Part shown: positions 3,966-10,116 of the stretch, one piece after another
How positions within the stretch are numbered: position 1 is the stretch's first letter
Layout of the letters: each line of letters begins with the position of its first letter
DNA from: Methanosarcina barkeri str. Wiesmoor
GTDB lineage: Archaea > Halobacteriota > Methanosarcinia > Methanosarcinales > Methanosarcinaceae
NCBI RefSeq assembly: GCF_000969985.1
Contig: NZ_CP009526.1
Span: forward strand, 930,001-994,000
DNA length: 64,000 nt
Direction of reading: 5' to 3'
Made by a program: the position numbers and the translations under genes
The notes under the pieces: generated by a model
The model's database searches: none
What the model saw: the letters and a program-made list of their open reading frames with translations, nothing else
What the model was told of the DNA's origin: nothing

Positions 3966-5453
3966 TCACTCAGCCCGGATAAGGCGGTTCATGCCGTTCA
4001 TTACAGCTTCTACGGAGGCCATAATTATGTCCGTCCTGGCTCCGCTTGCGGTAACTTCTTTTCCATCCTTGGAAAGTTTTACCCTTACTTCAACAAGGGC
4101 ATCGGTTCCGCCAGTGATCGAGTCTACATGATACTCTTCAAGGATAATATCTTCCGCACAGGAACGTACAGCTCTCCGGATTGCGTTGATTACAGCATCT
4201 ACAGGCCCGTTTCCGATTCCTGCCTGTACAATAGCTTTATCTTTTACGTTAAGTTTTATCGATGCCGTTGGAGTCACACGGTTTCCTGACACAATGGTAA
4301 ACTCTTCCATTTTTACCAGAGGTTCCTTGTAAATATCAAGTACGTTTTCTGCAATGGTGTGCAGGTCAGCATCAGTTACGTGTTTTCCCTGGTCACCCAT
4401 TTGCTTGACCCGGTTGAAAATTTCTTCGGTCTGGGCATCGTCAGCTACAAGCCCCATTTCCTTTAAGGCAAGAGTAATCGAGCTGCGTCCTGCATGTTTT
4501 CCAAGTACGATCTGACGCTGCCTTCCGATATATTCTGGGGTCATCGGCTCATAGGTTGCCTTATCGGCAAGAAGGCCGTGAACATGGATTCCTGCTTCGT
4601 GAGTGAATGCGTTTCCACCTACAAGAGCTTTATTTGGTGATACGGGAATTCCTGTAAGCCGGCTTACAAGCCTTGAAGTCCGGTAGATCATCTCATGTTT
4701 GATACCTGTATTATACTTGTAGAGCCATTCCAGGCTCGTTACTACTTCTTCAAGGGATGCGTTTCCAGCTCTTTCACCTAACCCATTAACTGTTACATGG
4801 GCCTGTTTTGCCCCTGCAGCCAGGGCAGCAACCGTGTTCGCAGTTGCAAAACCGAAATCATTGTGACAGTGAATGCTAAGAGGAGCTTTCAGTGAAGAAG
4901 ACAGGTCCCGGAAAATTTTGGTTGTCCTTTCAGGTACCAGAAGGCCTACAGTATCGCAAAAGCATAACCTGTCAGCGCCTGCATCTATTCCGTCGGCATA
5001 GATGGTCTTTAGAAACTCAGGGTCTGCGCGCGAGGCATCTTCCCCGCTCAATTCCACAATCAGGCCGTGGTCCTTGGCATACTCAATTACATCAACTGCG
5101 ATCTGCCTTACTGCATCCCGACCCTTTTTGATTTTCGTCTTTATATGAAGGTCTGAAACAGGTGCTACAAGGTGGATAGAGTCAACATCACATTCCAGAG
5201 CACGGTCAACATCGGACTTTACGATCCTGCAGTAGCTGCAAATTTCAGCGTTAAGCCCTGCATTTGCAACAGCTCTGATAGATTCCCTTTCACCTTTGGA
5301 AGTGATTGCAGAACCGGCCTCAATTATTGAGACCCCCATTTCATCAAGCGCTCGGGCGATTAAAAGCTTCTTGTCCTTTGTAAGGGCAACGCCAGGTGTT
5401 TGTTCACCGTCTCTCAAAGTAGTATCCAGAAAGCGGACATTTTCGAATAATAT
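3966..5453 (-). CDS. cimA: (R)-citramalate / 2-isopropylmalate synthase family protein
   Basis: This enzyme condenses acetyl-CoA with a 2-oxo acid. Family members are citramalate synthase (pyruvate; isoleucine route) or isopropylmalate synthase (leucine). An HMGL-like TIM barrel carries RDGEQTPGV at its N-terminus, the metal-binding HCHNDFG and NGLGERAGNASLEE. A C-terminal LeuA-type dimer domain follows (about 350-480). EAGSAITSKGERE and LECDVDSIHL resemble, from memory, the Methanocaldococcus CimA, so cimA is preferred over leuA. No ATG, GTG or well-placed TTG start exists. The TTG at 5417 would delete the conserved FLDTTL strand before RDGEQ. The reading frame continues upstream through that strand to a TGA at 5462-5460, with a GAGGG site at 5461-5457. 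An ATA (5453) or ATT (5456) start is therefore likely. Confidence 0.8.
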   Translation of the reverse strand: MLFENVRFLDTTLRDGEQTPGVALTKDKKLLIARALDEMGVSIIEAGSAITSKGERESIRAVANAGLNAEICSYCRIVKSDVDRALECDVDSIHLVAPVSDLHIKTKIKKGRDAVRQIAVDVIEYAKDHGLIVELSGEDASRADPEFLKTIYADGIDAGADRLCFCDTVGLLVPERTTKIFRDLSSSLKAPLSIHCHNDFGFATANTVAALAAGAKQAHVTVNGLGERAGNASLEEVVTSLEWLYKYNTGIKHEMIYRTSRLVSRLTGIPVSPNKALVGGNAFTHEAGIHVHGLLADKATYEPMTPEYIGRQRQIVLGKHAGRSSITLALKEMGLVADDAQTEEIFNRVKQMGDQGKHVTDADLHTIAENVLDIYKEPLVKMEEFTIVSGNRVTPTASIKLNVKDKAIVQAGIGNGPVDAVINAIRRAVRSCAEDIILEEYHVDSITGGTDALVEVRVKLSKDGKEVTASGARTDIIMASVEAVMNGMNRLIRAE

Positions 5454-5510
5454 AATCCCTCAGTATTTTTTTTATTGAGATAGTTTCTTCGCAATACAGG
5501 AAAATAATAT

Positions 5511-5520: not shown

Positions 5521-5679
5521 CTTGTCATTTTATAATATTATGTCCTATTTTGCAAGCTCCAATCTATTAATACAAATATTACATATATTTTTCTCAGGAA
5601 CCCGGCTTTTTCAGGAAGGTATCCAAATTTACGCCGTGGTTCTCTGAAACTTTTCCTCAATAGGTAGACCATAGTATTT

Positions 5680-5697
5680 TTAGTTTCCAGTTAACAA
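5680..5697 (+). repeat. Left copy of an 18-bp direct repeat bounding the AT-rich island
   Basis: TTAGTTTCCAGTTAACAA occurs here and again, identically and in the same orientation, at 8795-8812. The left copy directly precedes the ATG of a broken integrase fragment. The pair encloses two AT-rich membrane-protein genes, which fits an element boundary (att-like or a shared upstream sequence). Confidence 0.6.
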
Positions 5698-6003
5698 ATG
5701 AAGAAACCTATACTGTTAATCTGGTATCAACTCAATTATACCATCATAGGTAACCAGAAAATCTTAACGAACTACTTAAGAAAGTGCAAAGCCGATGGAC
5801 TTGAAGAAGCAACCATCGCAACGGCTGAAGCTACCTCACACCATTTATTAATTGTTGTGGTGATAAGGATCTACAAACACTTACACCAGATGACATATAC
5901 GACTACTCGGATTTTATAGATAACTACAAACGGACAACTAAAGTCGGTAAAGTTATTAAGTACTCACCATTCACAAAACAGCGGATCAAAATGGAGCAGA
6001 CCT
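5698..6003 (+). pseudogene. Broken tyrosine recombinase (integrase), N-terminal fragment
   Basis: From the ATG at 5698 the frame reads NQKILTNYLRKCKADGLEEA followed by TIATAEATSHHLL. This is the pattern of the core-binding (SAM-like) domain of XerC/D-type phage integrases. Near 5850 a frameshift is needed to continue in the next frame, which reads INCCGDKDLQTLTPDDIYDY and runs to a TGA at about 6003. The catalytic domain with its Arg and Tyr residues is absent. The gene is therefore frameshifted and truncated and is probably the remnant of the element that brought in the following genes. Assignment is by motif pattern, without a database search. Confidence 0.6.
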
Positions 6004-6203
6004 GAAAATCAGTTTCTTGTGAAATCGTGTTTCCGTATATGCTTTTACTCTAACTAGATGGGCTAATGGGAGTGGAAACTTGTGTATTCCTATATTAATA
6101 GAACAACCGAGTTTAAAAAACAAGTAAGTATGCATTCATAATAAAATAGAAAAAGTTAATAATAAAAAGATTCAATTGGTCCTAATTTAGAAGGATTGAA
6201 CTT

Positions 6204-7064
6204 ATGGACATTACTCCAACCTTAGATGAAATAACCAGATGCATAAATTATTTTTTAACATTTCCTATTCCAGAAAAACTTTACCTTTTTTTAGGAATAT
6301 GGTACCCTTACCTTATTACATTTCTTCTTATTGCTATAGTATTTTATTTTATTAAACGCTCACTTACATTTAGATATTATATTGATGGTGATTACATCAT
6401 ACTCAAAATTGTTTTTGTTTTTCTTTTGGCGAGTGTTGTTTTTGTGCCATTATGCGGTATGAATTTACTCATGCCTAATATACCGTGGGCGATTATATTT
6501 ACATTCGGTTTCTTATTATTAACAATTTTTCTAATTATATTCAGTTTCTTCTACCATGGTATTATTCCCGATTATTTCCACTTATCTGAAGATAAACCAT
6601 TGTTCATACACGATATATTTATACCAATAGCAAAGGTTACTTCTTTATTATTTGTTTTTTGTCTTATACTCTCCGGCGTATTAGCTATAACATCCTATGA
6701 TGGAACTCTAAAAATTGGACATATATCTTATGATACTGATTCAGAGTATAAAATAGGACATCTAGTTGATATTCCTGTAAAAATGGGAGGGCCTGATACA
6801 GGATTGCTTATAACATTATCGAGTGAAAAGCCTGGGACCTTAAAAGGAATATCTTCTTTAAATTTGAGTTCAAGTGATTCAAATAATCAAATAAATAATA
6901 CATTAAAATCTAATGGCTGTTTGACTGGGAAAGCAATTGATGCAGGAGAATATAAAATTGATATTAACACAACTTCGTTAGATCCTGGATATTATAATTT
7001 AAGACTCGAGAATGCTAAATATAAGCAAATAAACTCAGTAAAGACCTTCTATTTATCAAAATAA
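6204..7064 (+). CDS. Unrecognised membrane protein with C-terminal extracytoplasmic domain
   Basis: I do not recognise the family. The 286-aa protein has four predicted membrane segments at about 34-50, 65-85, 93-117 and 141-163. A roughly 120-residue soluble tail follows, rich in Ser, Asn, Gly and beta-branched residues (ending GYYNLRLENAKYKQINSVKT). It looks like a beta-sandwich (Ig-like) domain, probably outside the cell. The ATG follows AAGGA at 8-base spacing. Codon use is far more AT-rich than the flanking housekeeping genes, and a broken integrase lies 200 bp upstream, both suggesting transfer. It is 24 bp ahead of another membrane gene on the same strand, so the two probably act together. 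Confidence 0.75.
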   Translation: MDITPTLDEITRCINYFLTFPIPEKLYLFLGIWYPYLITFLLIAIVFYFIKRSLTFRYYIDGDYIILKIVFVFLLASVVFVPLCGMNLLMPNIPWAIIFTFGFLLLTIFLIIFSFFYHGIIPDYFHLSEDKPLFIHDIFIPIAKVTSLLFVFCLILSGVLAITSYDGTLKIGHISYDTDSEYKIGHLVDIPVKMGGPDTGLLITLSSEKPGTLKGISSLNLSSSDSNNQINNTLKSNGCLTGKAIDAGEYKIDINTTSLDPGYYNLRLENAKYKQINSVKTFYLSK

Positions 7065-7088
7065 AATAAGAATTATTGCAGAGTGTAA

Positions 7089-8468
7089 ATGATATTTGAT
7101 ATTACAACTTATGCTTTAATTGCTGGTCTATGTCTAACTTTTGGTCAGTATTTTAACGATGACGACGACCTAGTGAATATAAAAATGAAAAATATTCTCA
7201 AACAAAGTGTACACTTTAATTATTTCTATATAAAAAACGTCTGTCAAATATTTATTGATATATTTGATAATCTTTACTCCGATACCCTCAAATATCCCAC
7301 AATTTCTAATTTTTTATGGAGTTCTATTTTTATTTGTTGGGGAGTTGTATTTTTATTTACCTTGTTTGGATATACCCTAAAATACACAAACACAATACAG
7401 GTTTTATCATTTAGTTCAGTATTTGGTCTTCTCTTTGTTATTTTAAGTATATTTGGTGGTCCTATCGGATTTAAAGAAAGCATCCTTACCCTTGATAATT
7501 TATATGATCATTTAACATATTCTATAAAGTATAAATTAAAATTAAAAAATAACCCTTATAGCGAATATCAAAATGAAAAGATTTCTTTAAAAAAATGTGT
7601 TTTTGCCAGTATGTGTTGGGCAATAGGTTTTGCTATCTTTTTTGTAGCAATGGGTATAATTATTCAACTAACTCCCAAATCATTAATAACAAGTGGCGGG
7701 TTTCCCGATATGCCCCTCCTCCATTTTGGGTATTCTGAATTTATAACATTTTATGGTTTAATCAGTTTAATACTCATTATCATTGTATTTTTCCCTACAG
7801 CTTATATGTATATTGTTTTCTCAGCTATGGAAAAATACAAATCATTTTTTAAAATTTCACCATTGGTTGTAATAATAAGTTCATTTATTACAATTGTACT
7901 ATGGTCTTTACTCAAACATGATTTAATATTTCCACTTTTAAAAGATAATAATTTATATGAACTCGTTCCGTTTTTCTTTCTAAATGTACTTACCGATTCT
8001 CTTAGTATATTGGAAACCCGCTATATGCTAAACAAAGCAATATCAGGATCTAGAAAAACATTAGTTTTATTTTTATCTTTAGATTTATTAGCTTCAAGTC
8101 TTATTTATCTTATCGTACCAATGTTAAATGGTGATTTAACTCTTTTTTTAGATGCTATTTCTTTCAATGGAAAAATGGCATGGGTAGGAATATTTTATTG
8201 GTCAAGTTTATTTACATCTCTTCTTTTCTATTTATACATATTAGGATTTTTTATATTACATATACTCTACAAGTGTAGCAATAATAAATATTTTGTAAAT
8301 AAACCAAACAAGTGGTTAGGGATAATTCTATTTTTAATAGTTACCACTGTTTATTTAATTCCAACAAAATTTGGTTTTGTCTTTCCAATATTACTACTAA
8401 TCACTTTTTTAATGCTGCTGAGTTTAGTTATAATAATAAAATCCAAAAAATTAAATTTCAATAGTTAA
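7089..8468 (+). CDS. Unrecognised multi-pass membrane protein
   Basis: The family is not recognised. The 459-aa protein has roughly eight to ten hydrophobic segments. Clear ones lie at about 75-95, 103-123, 172-193, 218-238, 325-346, 362-388 and 404-447. An aspartate-rich stretch, FNDDDDL, sits near residue 22, and a polar, charged loop of about 45 residues lies near 125-170. The segment LTDSLSILETRYML near 310 is the most motif-like part. It starts 24 bp after the preceding membrane gene with only a weak ribosome-binding site, consistent with coupling. Base composition is strongly AT-rich. No catalytic motif, P-loop or transporter signature could be seen, so no function is proposed. Confidence 0.75.
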   Translation: MIFDITTYALIAGLCLTFGQYFNDDDDLVNIKMKNILKQSVHFNYFYIKNVCQIFIDIFDNLYSDTLKYPTISNFLWSSIFICWGVVFLFTLFGYTLKYTNTIQVLSFSSVFGLLFVILSIFGGPIGFKESILTLDNLYDHLTYSIKYKLKLKNNPYSEYQNEKISLKKCVFASMCWAIGFAIFFVAMGIIIQLTPKSLITSGGFPDMPLLHFGYSEFITFYGLISLILIIIVFFPTAYMYIVFSAMEKYKSFFKISPLVVIISSFITIVLWSLLKHDLIFPLLKDNNLYELVPFFFLNVLTDSLSILETRYMLNKAISGSRKTLVLFLSLDLLASSLIYLIVPMLNGDLTLFLDAISFNGKMAWVGIFYWSSLFTSLLFYLYILGFFILHILYKCSNNKYFVNKPNKWLGIILFLIVTTVYLIPTKFGFVFPILLLITFLMLLSLVIIIKSKKLNFNS

Positions 8469-9042
8469 TTTATCAAAAATTAACGCGCGATTGAAAATGT
8501 CTATCGTCTTACCAAAAACTTCTACCGTGTTTTACTCTTTGTGACTCTAGGTAAAGCTTCATATTCAACCTGCTATTTTTCCTAAATTAGACTTTGAATA
8601 TACAGCCTGCTTCTGTGTTACTTCAGTAAGAGCCTATCCGAAAATTGTTGTAATTTACTTTGAGGATTGCCCTGACTTGAGGATTGCCCTGACATTGAGT
8701 ATGTGTTAATAACAGTTTTATTTTATTCTGAAAATTATGACAATTTTTTTCAAGTCGTTGTAAATCTGTGAGGTAAACAATATAGATAATTATATTAGTT
8801 TCCAGTTAACAACGTATTCTACTTTAAAAGGAATAATCTCTTTCTATGATCAATTCTTCAAAACATTAAAAATAAATATAGTAAAGAAGTTAGGGAAAAA
8901 AGAGAAAAGTAGGAGAAAAGAAGAAAAAGAAGAGAAAAAATGAGAAAATGATAAAACTGCAAGAGTTTTTCCCGCAACACAAAAAGCAAAGTGTATGCGA
9001 CTCTTGCGTAAAATTACCTATTGCAGTTACTTCAAAAGGGCT
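8469..9042. other. Intergenic region after the island, with remnants
   Basis: No gene is seen. A direct duplication of GAGGATTGCCCTGAC lies at about 8661-8693. The sequence GAGCCTATCCGAAAA near 8631 resembles insertion-sequence ends but has no partner here. The right 18-bp repeat is at 8795-8812. A purine-rich run of about 75 bases (8875-8950) reads as a pyrimidine/T-rich tract downstream of the minus-strand peptidase gene and may serve as its transcription end. Confidence 0.4.
8795..8812 (+). repeat. Right copy of the 18-bp direct repeat
   Basis: This is identical to 5680-5697 and in the same orientation. Sequence after it (AACGTATTCTAC) no longer resembles the integrase fragment that follows the left copy. 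Confidence 0.6.
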
Positions 9043-10116
9043 TCAGAAATATTTGCCTACGTTTTCTATTGCTTTCACAATAAGGGAAACGCACGCGTCA
9101 ATATCTGCCACATCCAGGACTTCAACAGGTGAATGGATGTATCGTGTGGCTATGCTGACTGTACCTGTAGGGATACCTTCTTTTGTAAGGTGTATTGAGG
9201 TTGCATCGGTTGTGCCTCCCGAACCAACGCCAAGCTGGTAAGGTATCTTATTTTCAGTAGCAGTTTCTTTAAGCCACTTAATAACCTGTGGGTGAGCTAT
9301 AAGGCCTCTTCCGGACGCATCGGCTAATGTAATTACAGGGCCTTTCCCGATTTCCAGGCAAGAATCGGTTTTAGTAATGCCCGGATGGTCTCCAGGAATA
9401 GTTGTGTCAAGGGCAAGCGCAAGGTCTGGAGAAACCCCAAAGGCAGAGGTTCTTGCTCCTTTTAACCCTACCTCTTCCTGGACAGTGCCTACGGCATAGA
9501 CATTTGCTCCAACTTTATGTTTGGAAAGCCGTTTCATAACCTCAATAAGGATAACAACGCCTGCACGGTTGTCAAGGGCTTTTGAAGTTATCTTTCCGTT
9601 TGCCAGAGGCACAAAGTCCCGGTCAATAGAAACTGCCGTACCTATCTCAATTCCAAGGTTCTCAGCATCTTCCCTGTCTTTTGCTCCGATATCGATGAAC
9701 ATATCGTCCAGCTTCACGGGCTTTTTCCTGTCATCCTCTTTCATTACATGAGGAGGCTTGGACCCGATGACTCCGGGAATTGGACCTTTTTTGCCGTGAA
9801 GTACAACTCTCTGGTTAAGAAGGGTCTGGTCAAACCATCCTCCGATCCCGACAAACCTGAGGAAGCCATTATCATCAATATACCTGACCATAAGCCCGAT
9901 TTCATCCATATGGGCAGCCAGCATTATGGAAGGGCCTTTTCCTTTTTTGAGAGCTATTAGGTTTCCCATGCAATCTTTGCGCATGGTATCAACATAGGGT
10001 TCAAGTTCCTTTTCAAGGAGTTTTCGGATGTCGTCCTCAAAGCCTGAGATCCCATGAGCATTGGTGAATTTTTCAAGCAGAGATTTTATTTTTTTAAGGT
10101 TTCCGCCTTTTTCCAT
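9043..10116 (-). CDS. M42-family metallo-aminopeptidase
   Basis: This belongs to the di-metal aminopeptidase family (tetrahedral TET-type, FrvX/YsdC-like) that trims peptides in the cytoplasm. Using the ATG at 10116 the protein has 357 aa. Metal and catalytic residues are all present: AAHMDEIG (His69, Asp71), ALDNRAG (Asp182), TVQEEVG (Glu214, Glu215), ALDTT (Asp237) and a late His in YIHSPVE. The upstream TTG at 10140 is less likely, because AGGAG lies 10 bases before the ATG at 10116 and within the longer version. It is a single gene with a pyrimidine-rich 3' end. Confidence 0.9.
   Translation of the reverse strand: MEKGGNLKKIKSLLEKFTNAHGISGFEDDIRKLLEKELEPYVDTMRKDCMGNLIALKKGKGPSIMLAAHMDEIGLMVRYIDDNGFLRFVGIGGWFDQTLLNQRVVLHGKKGPIPGVIGSKPPHVMKEDDRKKPVKLDDMFIDIGAKDREDAENLGIEIGTAVSIDRDFVPLANGKITSKALDNRAGVVILIEVMKRLSKHKVGANVYAVGTVQEEVGLKGARTSAFGVSPDLALALDTTIPGDHPGITKTDSCLEIGKGPVITLADASGRGLIAHPQVIKWLKETATENKIPYQLGVGSGGTTDATSIHLTKEGIPTGTVSIATRYIHSPVEVLDVADIDACVSLIVKAIENVGKYF

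Follow-up and report, generated by a model that had tools for sequence, protein, structure and literature searches.

A probable relic of an integrative element at a conserved site upstream of leuA in Methanosarcina barkeri str. Wiesmoor

Integrative elements at intergenic sites of archaea

Archaeal integrated elements with an intergenic attB site are known, for example the prophage psiM100 of Methanothermobacter wolfeii (PMC8371274, section 19), and recombination at such sites is noted there, in a review of tyrosine recombinases, as untested. We analyzed a stretch of 64,000 nucleotides from M. barkeri str. Wiesmoor (the window), which holds an island of 3.1 kb between two 18-bp repeats. Since elements with intergenic att sites are already known in archaea, this island adds another example. 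Like the psiM100-type elements (PMC8371274) it has an AT-rich intergenic att site and not a tRNA gene, but a conserved block upstream of one biosynthetic gene serves as its att core, elements with different integrases have this core in common, and the island element is decayed. A second comparison concerns the SSV-type (suicidal) integrases (PMC8371274), which have the att site inside the integrase gene and are split by integration into intN and intC fragments. The island shares with them an N-terminal integrase fragment beside an att copy; its att site, however, lies upstream of the integrase gene, no intC fragment is present at its right end, and the integrase gene of its relative in another Methanosarcina genome (G002, see below) is unsplit by insertion. 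An SSV-type intN is therefore ruled out for the fragment, the G002 integrase being intact after insertion.

Repeats, empty sites and the conserved block upstream of leuA

The features of the locus are as follows (window positions).

3966..5459, minus strand: isopropylmalate/citramalate synthase-type gene of the leucine pathway (leuA; start codon putative) with HMGL-like, HCS_D2 and LeuA_dimer domains
5663..5697, minus strand: conserved block, TTGTTAACTGGAAACTAAAAATACTATGGTCTAC in the leuA orientation, a probable BRE/TATA region of the leuA promoter
5680..5697, plus strand: attL, the 18-bp repeat on the leuA side, exact; empty-site homology stops exactly here
5698..5995, plus strand: left element end with the remnant of a tyrosine integrase N-terminus, from nucleotide and amino acid matches to G002
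5996..6142, no strand: debris from the integrase break to the cargo block, including a short dispersed-repeat match (6077-6120)
6204..7064, plus strand: cargo gene A (P0001, 286 aa), intact ORF, about four transmembrane helices and a C-terminal β-strand domain
7089..8468, plus strand: cargo gene B (P0002, 459 aa), intact ORF, polytopic membrane protein with about ten predicted transmembrane helices
8484..8745, no strand: spacer with short dispersed-repeat matches, of which 8553-8630 is found twice more in the genome
8746..8794, plus strand: right element end; when the repeat is included, it has 82% identity across 66 bp with the corresponding end in G002
8795..8812, plus strand: attR, the other 18-bp repeat, exact; empty-site homology starts exactly here
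9043..10116, minus strand: M42-family aminopeptidase gene (Pfam Peptidase_M42, 8.7e-116), right host flank and neighbour of leuA in empty-site genomes

An earlier note, made from the letters of the window, had described an island bounded by identical 18-bp repeats in the same orientation, which contains two AT-rich membrane genes and, immediately following the left repeat, a broken tyrosine-recombinase N-terminus; each of these features was recovered. Exact copies of TTAGTTTCCAGTTAACAA stand at 5680-5697 and 8795-8812, on the plus strand in both cases; two such matches were obtained in none of 100 shuffles of the window, even when three mismatches were allowed, and a search of the complete genome (4.9 Mb, two contigs) that tolerated up to two mismatches gave no third copy. 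The GC content drops from about 46% in the flanking genes to about 25–30% between the repeats, and GC3 is about 0.21 against about 0.42. The genes A and B, both AT-rich, are uninterrupted.

Comparison with other genomes reveals the uninterrupted site that the note had proposed to look for. A single 18-bp copy, with a gap of 411–666 bp between leuA and the M42 peptidase gene, is present in 12 Methanosarcina genomes. In all eight empty sites that were aligned, the flank alignments break at the repeat edges, with an overlap of exactly 18 bp; in two of the genomes (G007 and G018) these 18 bp are all that matches on the right at the repeat. The homology of the left flank to eight uninterrupted sites ends exactly at 5697, and at those sites where the right side could be aligned at the repeat, that of the right flank begins exactly at 8795. 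The direct repeats at the island ends correspond to the one copy of the empty site, as in integrative elements of tyrosine recombinases, and the exact overlap supports integration.

The 18 bp are themselves conserved. With at most one mismatch they occur in 29 of 31 Methanosarcina genomes, normally as one copy per genome, approximately 0.24–0.42 kb upstream of a gene of the leuA/citramalate-synthase type (in the window, Pfam HMGL-like 1.6e-80 and LeuA_dimer 7.9e-40), an orthologue of which adjoins the site at every Methanosarcina locus examined. The larger block TTGTTAACTGGAAACTAAAAATACTATGGTCTAC is nearly invariant across the 29 loci, and conservation falls at the att edge. Judging from this conservation alone, the block is probably the BRE/TATA promoter region of leuA, with the att core as its upstream edge; if so, leuA transcription should start about 25 bp downstream of TAAAAATA. 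No known RNA was matched when the leuA leader was compared with Rfam. Conservation upstream of leuA in nearly all genomes would also be expected if the repeat were a duplicated promoter element and no integration had taken place. This we consider very improbable: the empty sites hold one copy at which the flanks join, both island ends match those of an element with an intact integrase, and the integrase remnant adjoins attL. Duplication of a promoter without integration is effectively refuted by the empty sites together with the G002 element.

Related elements and other occupants of the site

The G002 genome carries at the same chromosomal site an element of 27.5 kb (C16:16351-43863; L026:8351-20000 and L027:1-15863), with an intact tyrosine integrase of 393 residues beside attL (L027:14652-15830; Pfam Phage_integrase, 2.5e-24). 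Its left end is 84% identical at the nucleotide level over 316 bp to window positions 5680-5994, and the integrase remnant (approximately 5698-5995) matches residues 1–95 of its integrase with 63–68% amino acid identity in two frames, or 81% when read across the frameshift. The remnant has lost its ATG, has suffered a deletion of one nucleotide and ends its match at about residue 95 of 393, without the catalytic domain. An integrase gene thus adjoins one att site in both cases, as an N-terminal remnant at attL in the window and as its homologue in the same position in G002. The two elements share the site, the left end with integrase and the right end, but that of G002 has an intact integrase, PolA, an NrS-1-polymerase-like protein, a DUF927 protein, restriction-modification and cas genes, and has no A or B. 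In full, its cargo comprises a type I restriction-modification system, an incomplete set of type I-E cas genes accompanied by a CRISPR array, and the three proteins just named; the array has 15 near-identical repeats, and cas1 and cas2 were not recognised. Integrases 73–83% identical are found at other locations in three genomes (G030, G014 and G017). No relative of the integrase was found in viral contigs, and in phage records only distant ones, with at most 38% identity among the best matches listed.

Because both of its ends match those of the G002 element, we take the island to be what is left of an element of that type, and since it lacks a functional integrase with a catalytic domain it is filed as a relic and not as an active element. 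The reading as a decayed integrative element, already advanced in the earlier note, is strengthened by the empty sites and by a relative that has an intact integrase and shares both ends; on these sequence comparisons the island is very probably the remnant, now immobile, of an integrative element akin to that of G002. No close intact integrase was found elsewhere in the host genome, which, the island integrase being truncated, probably cannot mobilise the island itself. The comparisons show that the element integrated by site-specific recombination at the conserved 18 bp upstream of leuA and duplicated them, and that the conserved block kept its copy on the leuA side. Decay of the integrase gene followed: it lost its start codon, acquired a frameshift and lost everything past about residue 95. 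The insertion may have regenerated the 18 bp as the upstream edge of the leuA promoter, in the way that elements targeting tRNA genes regenerate the tRNA gene. The island also lacks the replication genes that the full element has; they and the mobility genes may have been removed by deletion, possibly aided by dispersed repeats near the cargo borders, with A and B retained by selection as useful.

The site upstream of leuA is an integration hotspot, occupied by a provirus in G001, by the restriction-modification/CRISPR element of G002 and by a restriction-modification relic in G015. In the 5.75-Mb Methanosarcina genome G001 the occupant is a tailed provirus of 46 kb (C1:4680688-4726819; L028:1688-20000, L100 and L029:1-8819), with a large terminase (1.2e-161), a tape measure protein (6.3e-75), an integrase (3.9e-34) and a minor head protein; its right att copy has two mismatches, and the G001 flanks match the empty sites. 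Transposase-like genes also lie inside this provirus. It shares with the island the att core and an integrase adjoining attL, but it has viral structural genes and different element arms, and its integrase shares only about 40% identity with the one in G002, so that different integrases share one target. G015 (C216, L030:711-5139) has a second relic, a parallel case of integrase loss: it comprises a DUF262-type protein together with a truncated HsdR, which runs up to an N-terminal integrase fragment beside the att site. In two further genomes, G012 (L039:2300-12050) and G013 (L040:2650-15600), the interval from leuA to the M42 peptidase gene holds an apparent gas-vesicle cluster (GvpF/L-like and related ORFs) and no second att copy. 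In an incomplete literature search we found neither an account of the leuA site as a hotspot nor a description of a promoter-edge hotspot common to different integrases. For a methanogen genus that is amenable to genetics, the leuA site provides a clean, testable att site away from tRNA genes, and it is a possible landing site for genetic tools. Given the provirus and the defence genes that gather there, new defence systems of methanogens may also be sought at this site.

The two cargo genes

B starts 24 bp downstream of A in the same direction, and the pair is probably one operon for an envelope complex, in which A would be a four-helix membrane protein with a surface-exposed β domain and B, which carries the motif DSLSILETRYML, its partner of about ten helices (helices in both from a transmembrane scan). 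Consistent with the view of the earlier note that the cargo falls outside known families, neither protein was matched in Pfam, NCBIfam or PHROGs, nor by the PADLOC models, which place them in no known anti-phage defence system, and profile searches against PDB sequences yielded only weak matches and no convincing relative. Structure models (AlphaFold2 single-sequence with mean pLDDT 53 for A; pLDDT 37 for B) were too poor for a fold search. Among 186 genomes from the order, 17 have relatives of A, which are diverse archaeal proteins and mostly solitary, and 5 have relatives of B; a scan of genome contigs for B gave one relative, in Methanosarcina sp. 2.H.T.1A.6. No relatives of either were found in viral contigs and plasmids.

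The pair A-B was seen only in the window and in the genome G010, where it lies among other, unrelated chromosomal genes and without an integrase. The block common to the two corresponds to window positions 6143-8483, its edges being inside the island. The note had also proposed a search for the pair beside an intact integrase, and no such case was found. Around the G010 block no pair of direct repeats resembling att sites was recognised, and a search for an empty A-B locus in relatives of G010 met a G010 flank full of dispersed repeats. B, with a dN/dS of about 0.30 between the two copies, is under purifying selection. In A the C-terminal domain is 77–90% identical at the amino acid level to that of G010 (L031:11556-12413) and the membrane part 27–54%; as the latter also shows the higher synonymous divergence, the sequences suggest that the N-terminal part was exchanged.

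Since A and B are absent from the G002 element and from any integrase neighbourhood, and their G010 copies lie elsewhere, they may not have been brought by the element at all, being instead chromosomal accessory genes that came later, by insertion or recombination, into a relic whose decay had already taken place. The edges of the shared block within the island, its setting between unrelated chromosomal genes in G010, the short dispersed repeats near its borders in the window and the solitary chromosomal position of most A relatives agree with such a separate entry. On the other hand, neither a repeat pair nor a transposase surrounds the block to explain its movement, and turnover of cargo within such elements is ordinary; we regard a separate entry as a real, if rather less than even, possibility. 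Either way the island itself is best read as the relic of a G002-type element. Short dispersed repeats, resembling MITEs or IS ends, are found at window positions 8553-8630 and 6077-6120 and at about 8127-8192 of L031, and recur in Methanosarcina genomes. Those near the cargo borders are possible points of deletion or recombination.

Concerning function, A and B more probably than not have an ordinary role in the envelope or in transport, unrelated to defence, as neutral or niche-specific cargo. In favour of this, A has scattered relatives that are membrane proteins specific to their lineages and encoded next to housekeeping genes, and no defence family was matched by PADLOC; the defence genes in other occupants of the site, however, make defence cargo plausible without showing it. 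Because those occupants carry restriction-modification and CRISPR-Cas genes, our best guess at a specific role, suggested by location, is surface defence or superinfection exclusion, to which we give a low probability. More doubtful still is the combined proposal that the leuA site is a genus-wide Methanosarcina hotspot where the att sites of different integrases each incorporate a copied promoter edge, and that A-B is a new two-gene system of envelope defence or superinfection exclusion left by its decayed carrier. In a further genome, G053 (C119, L073:6650-9096), a distant relative of B lies directly after a gene for a polymer-forming (bactofilin-like) repeat protein with membrane helices.
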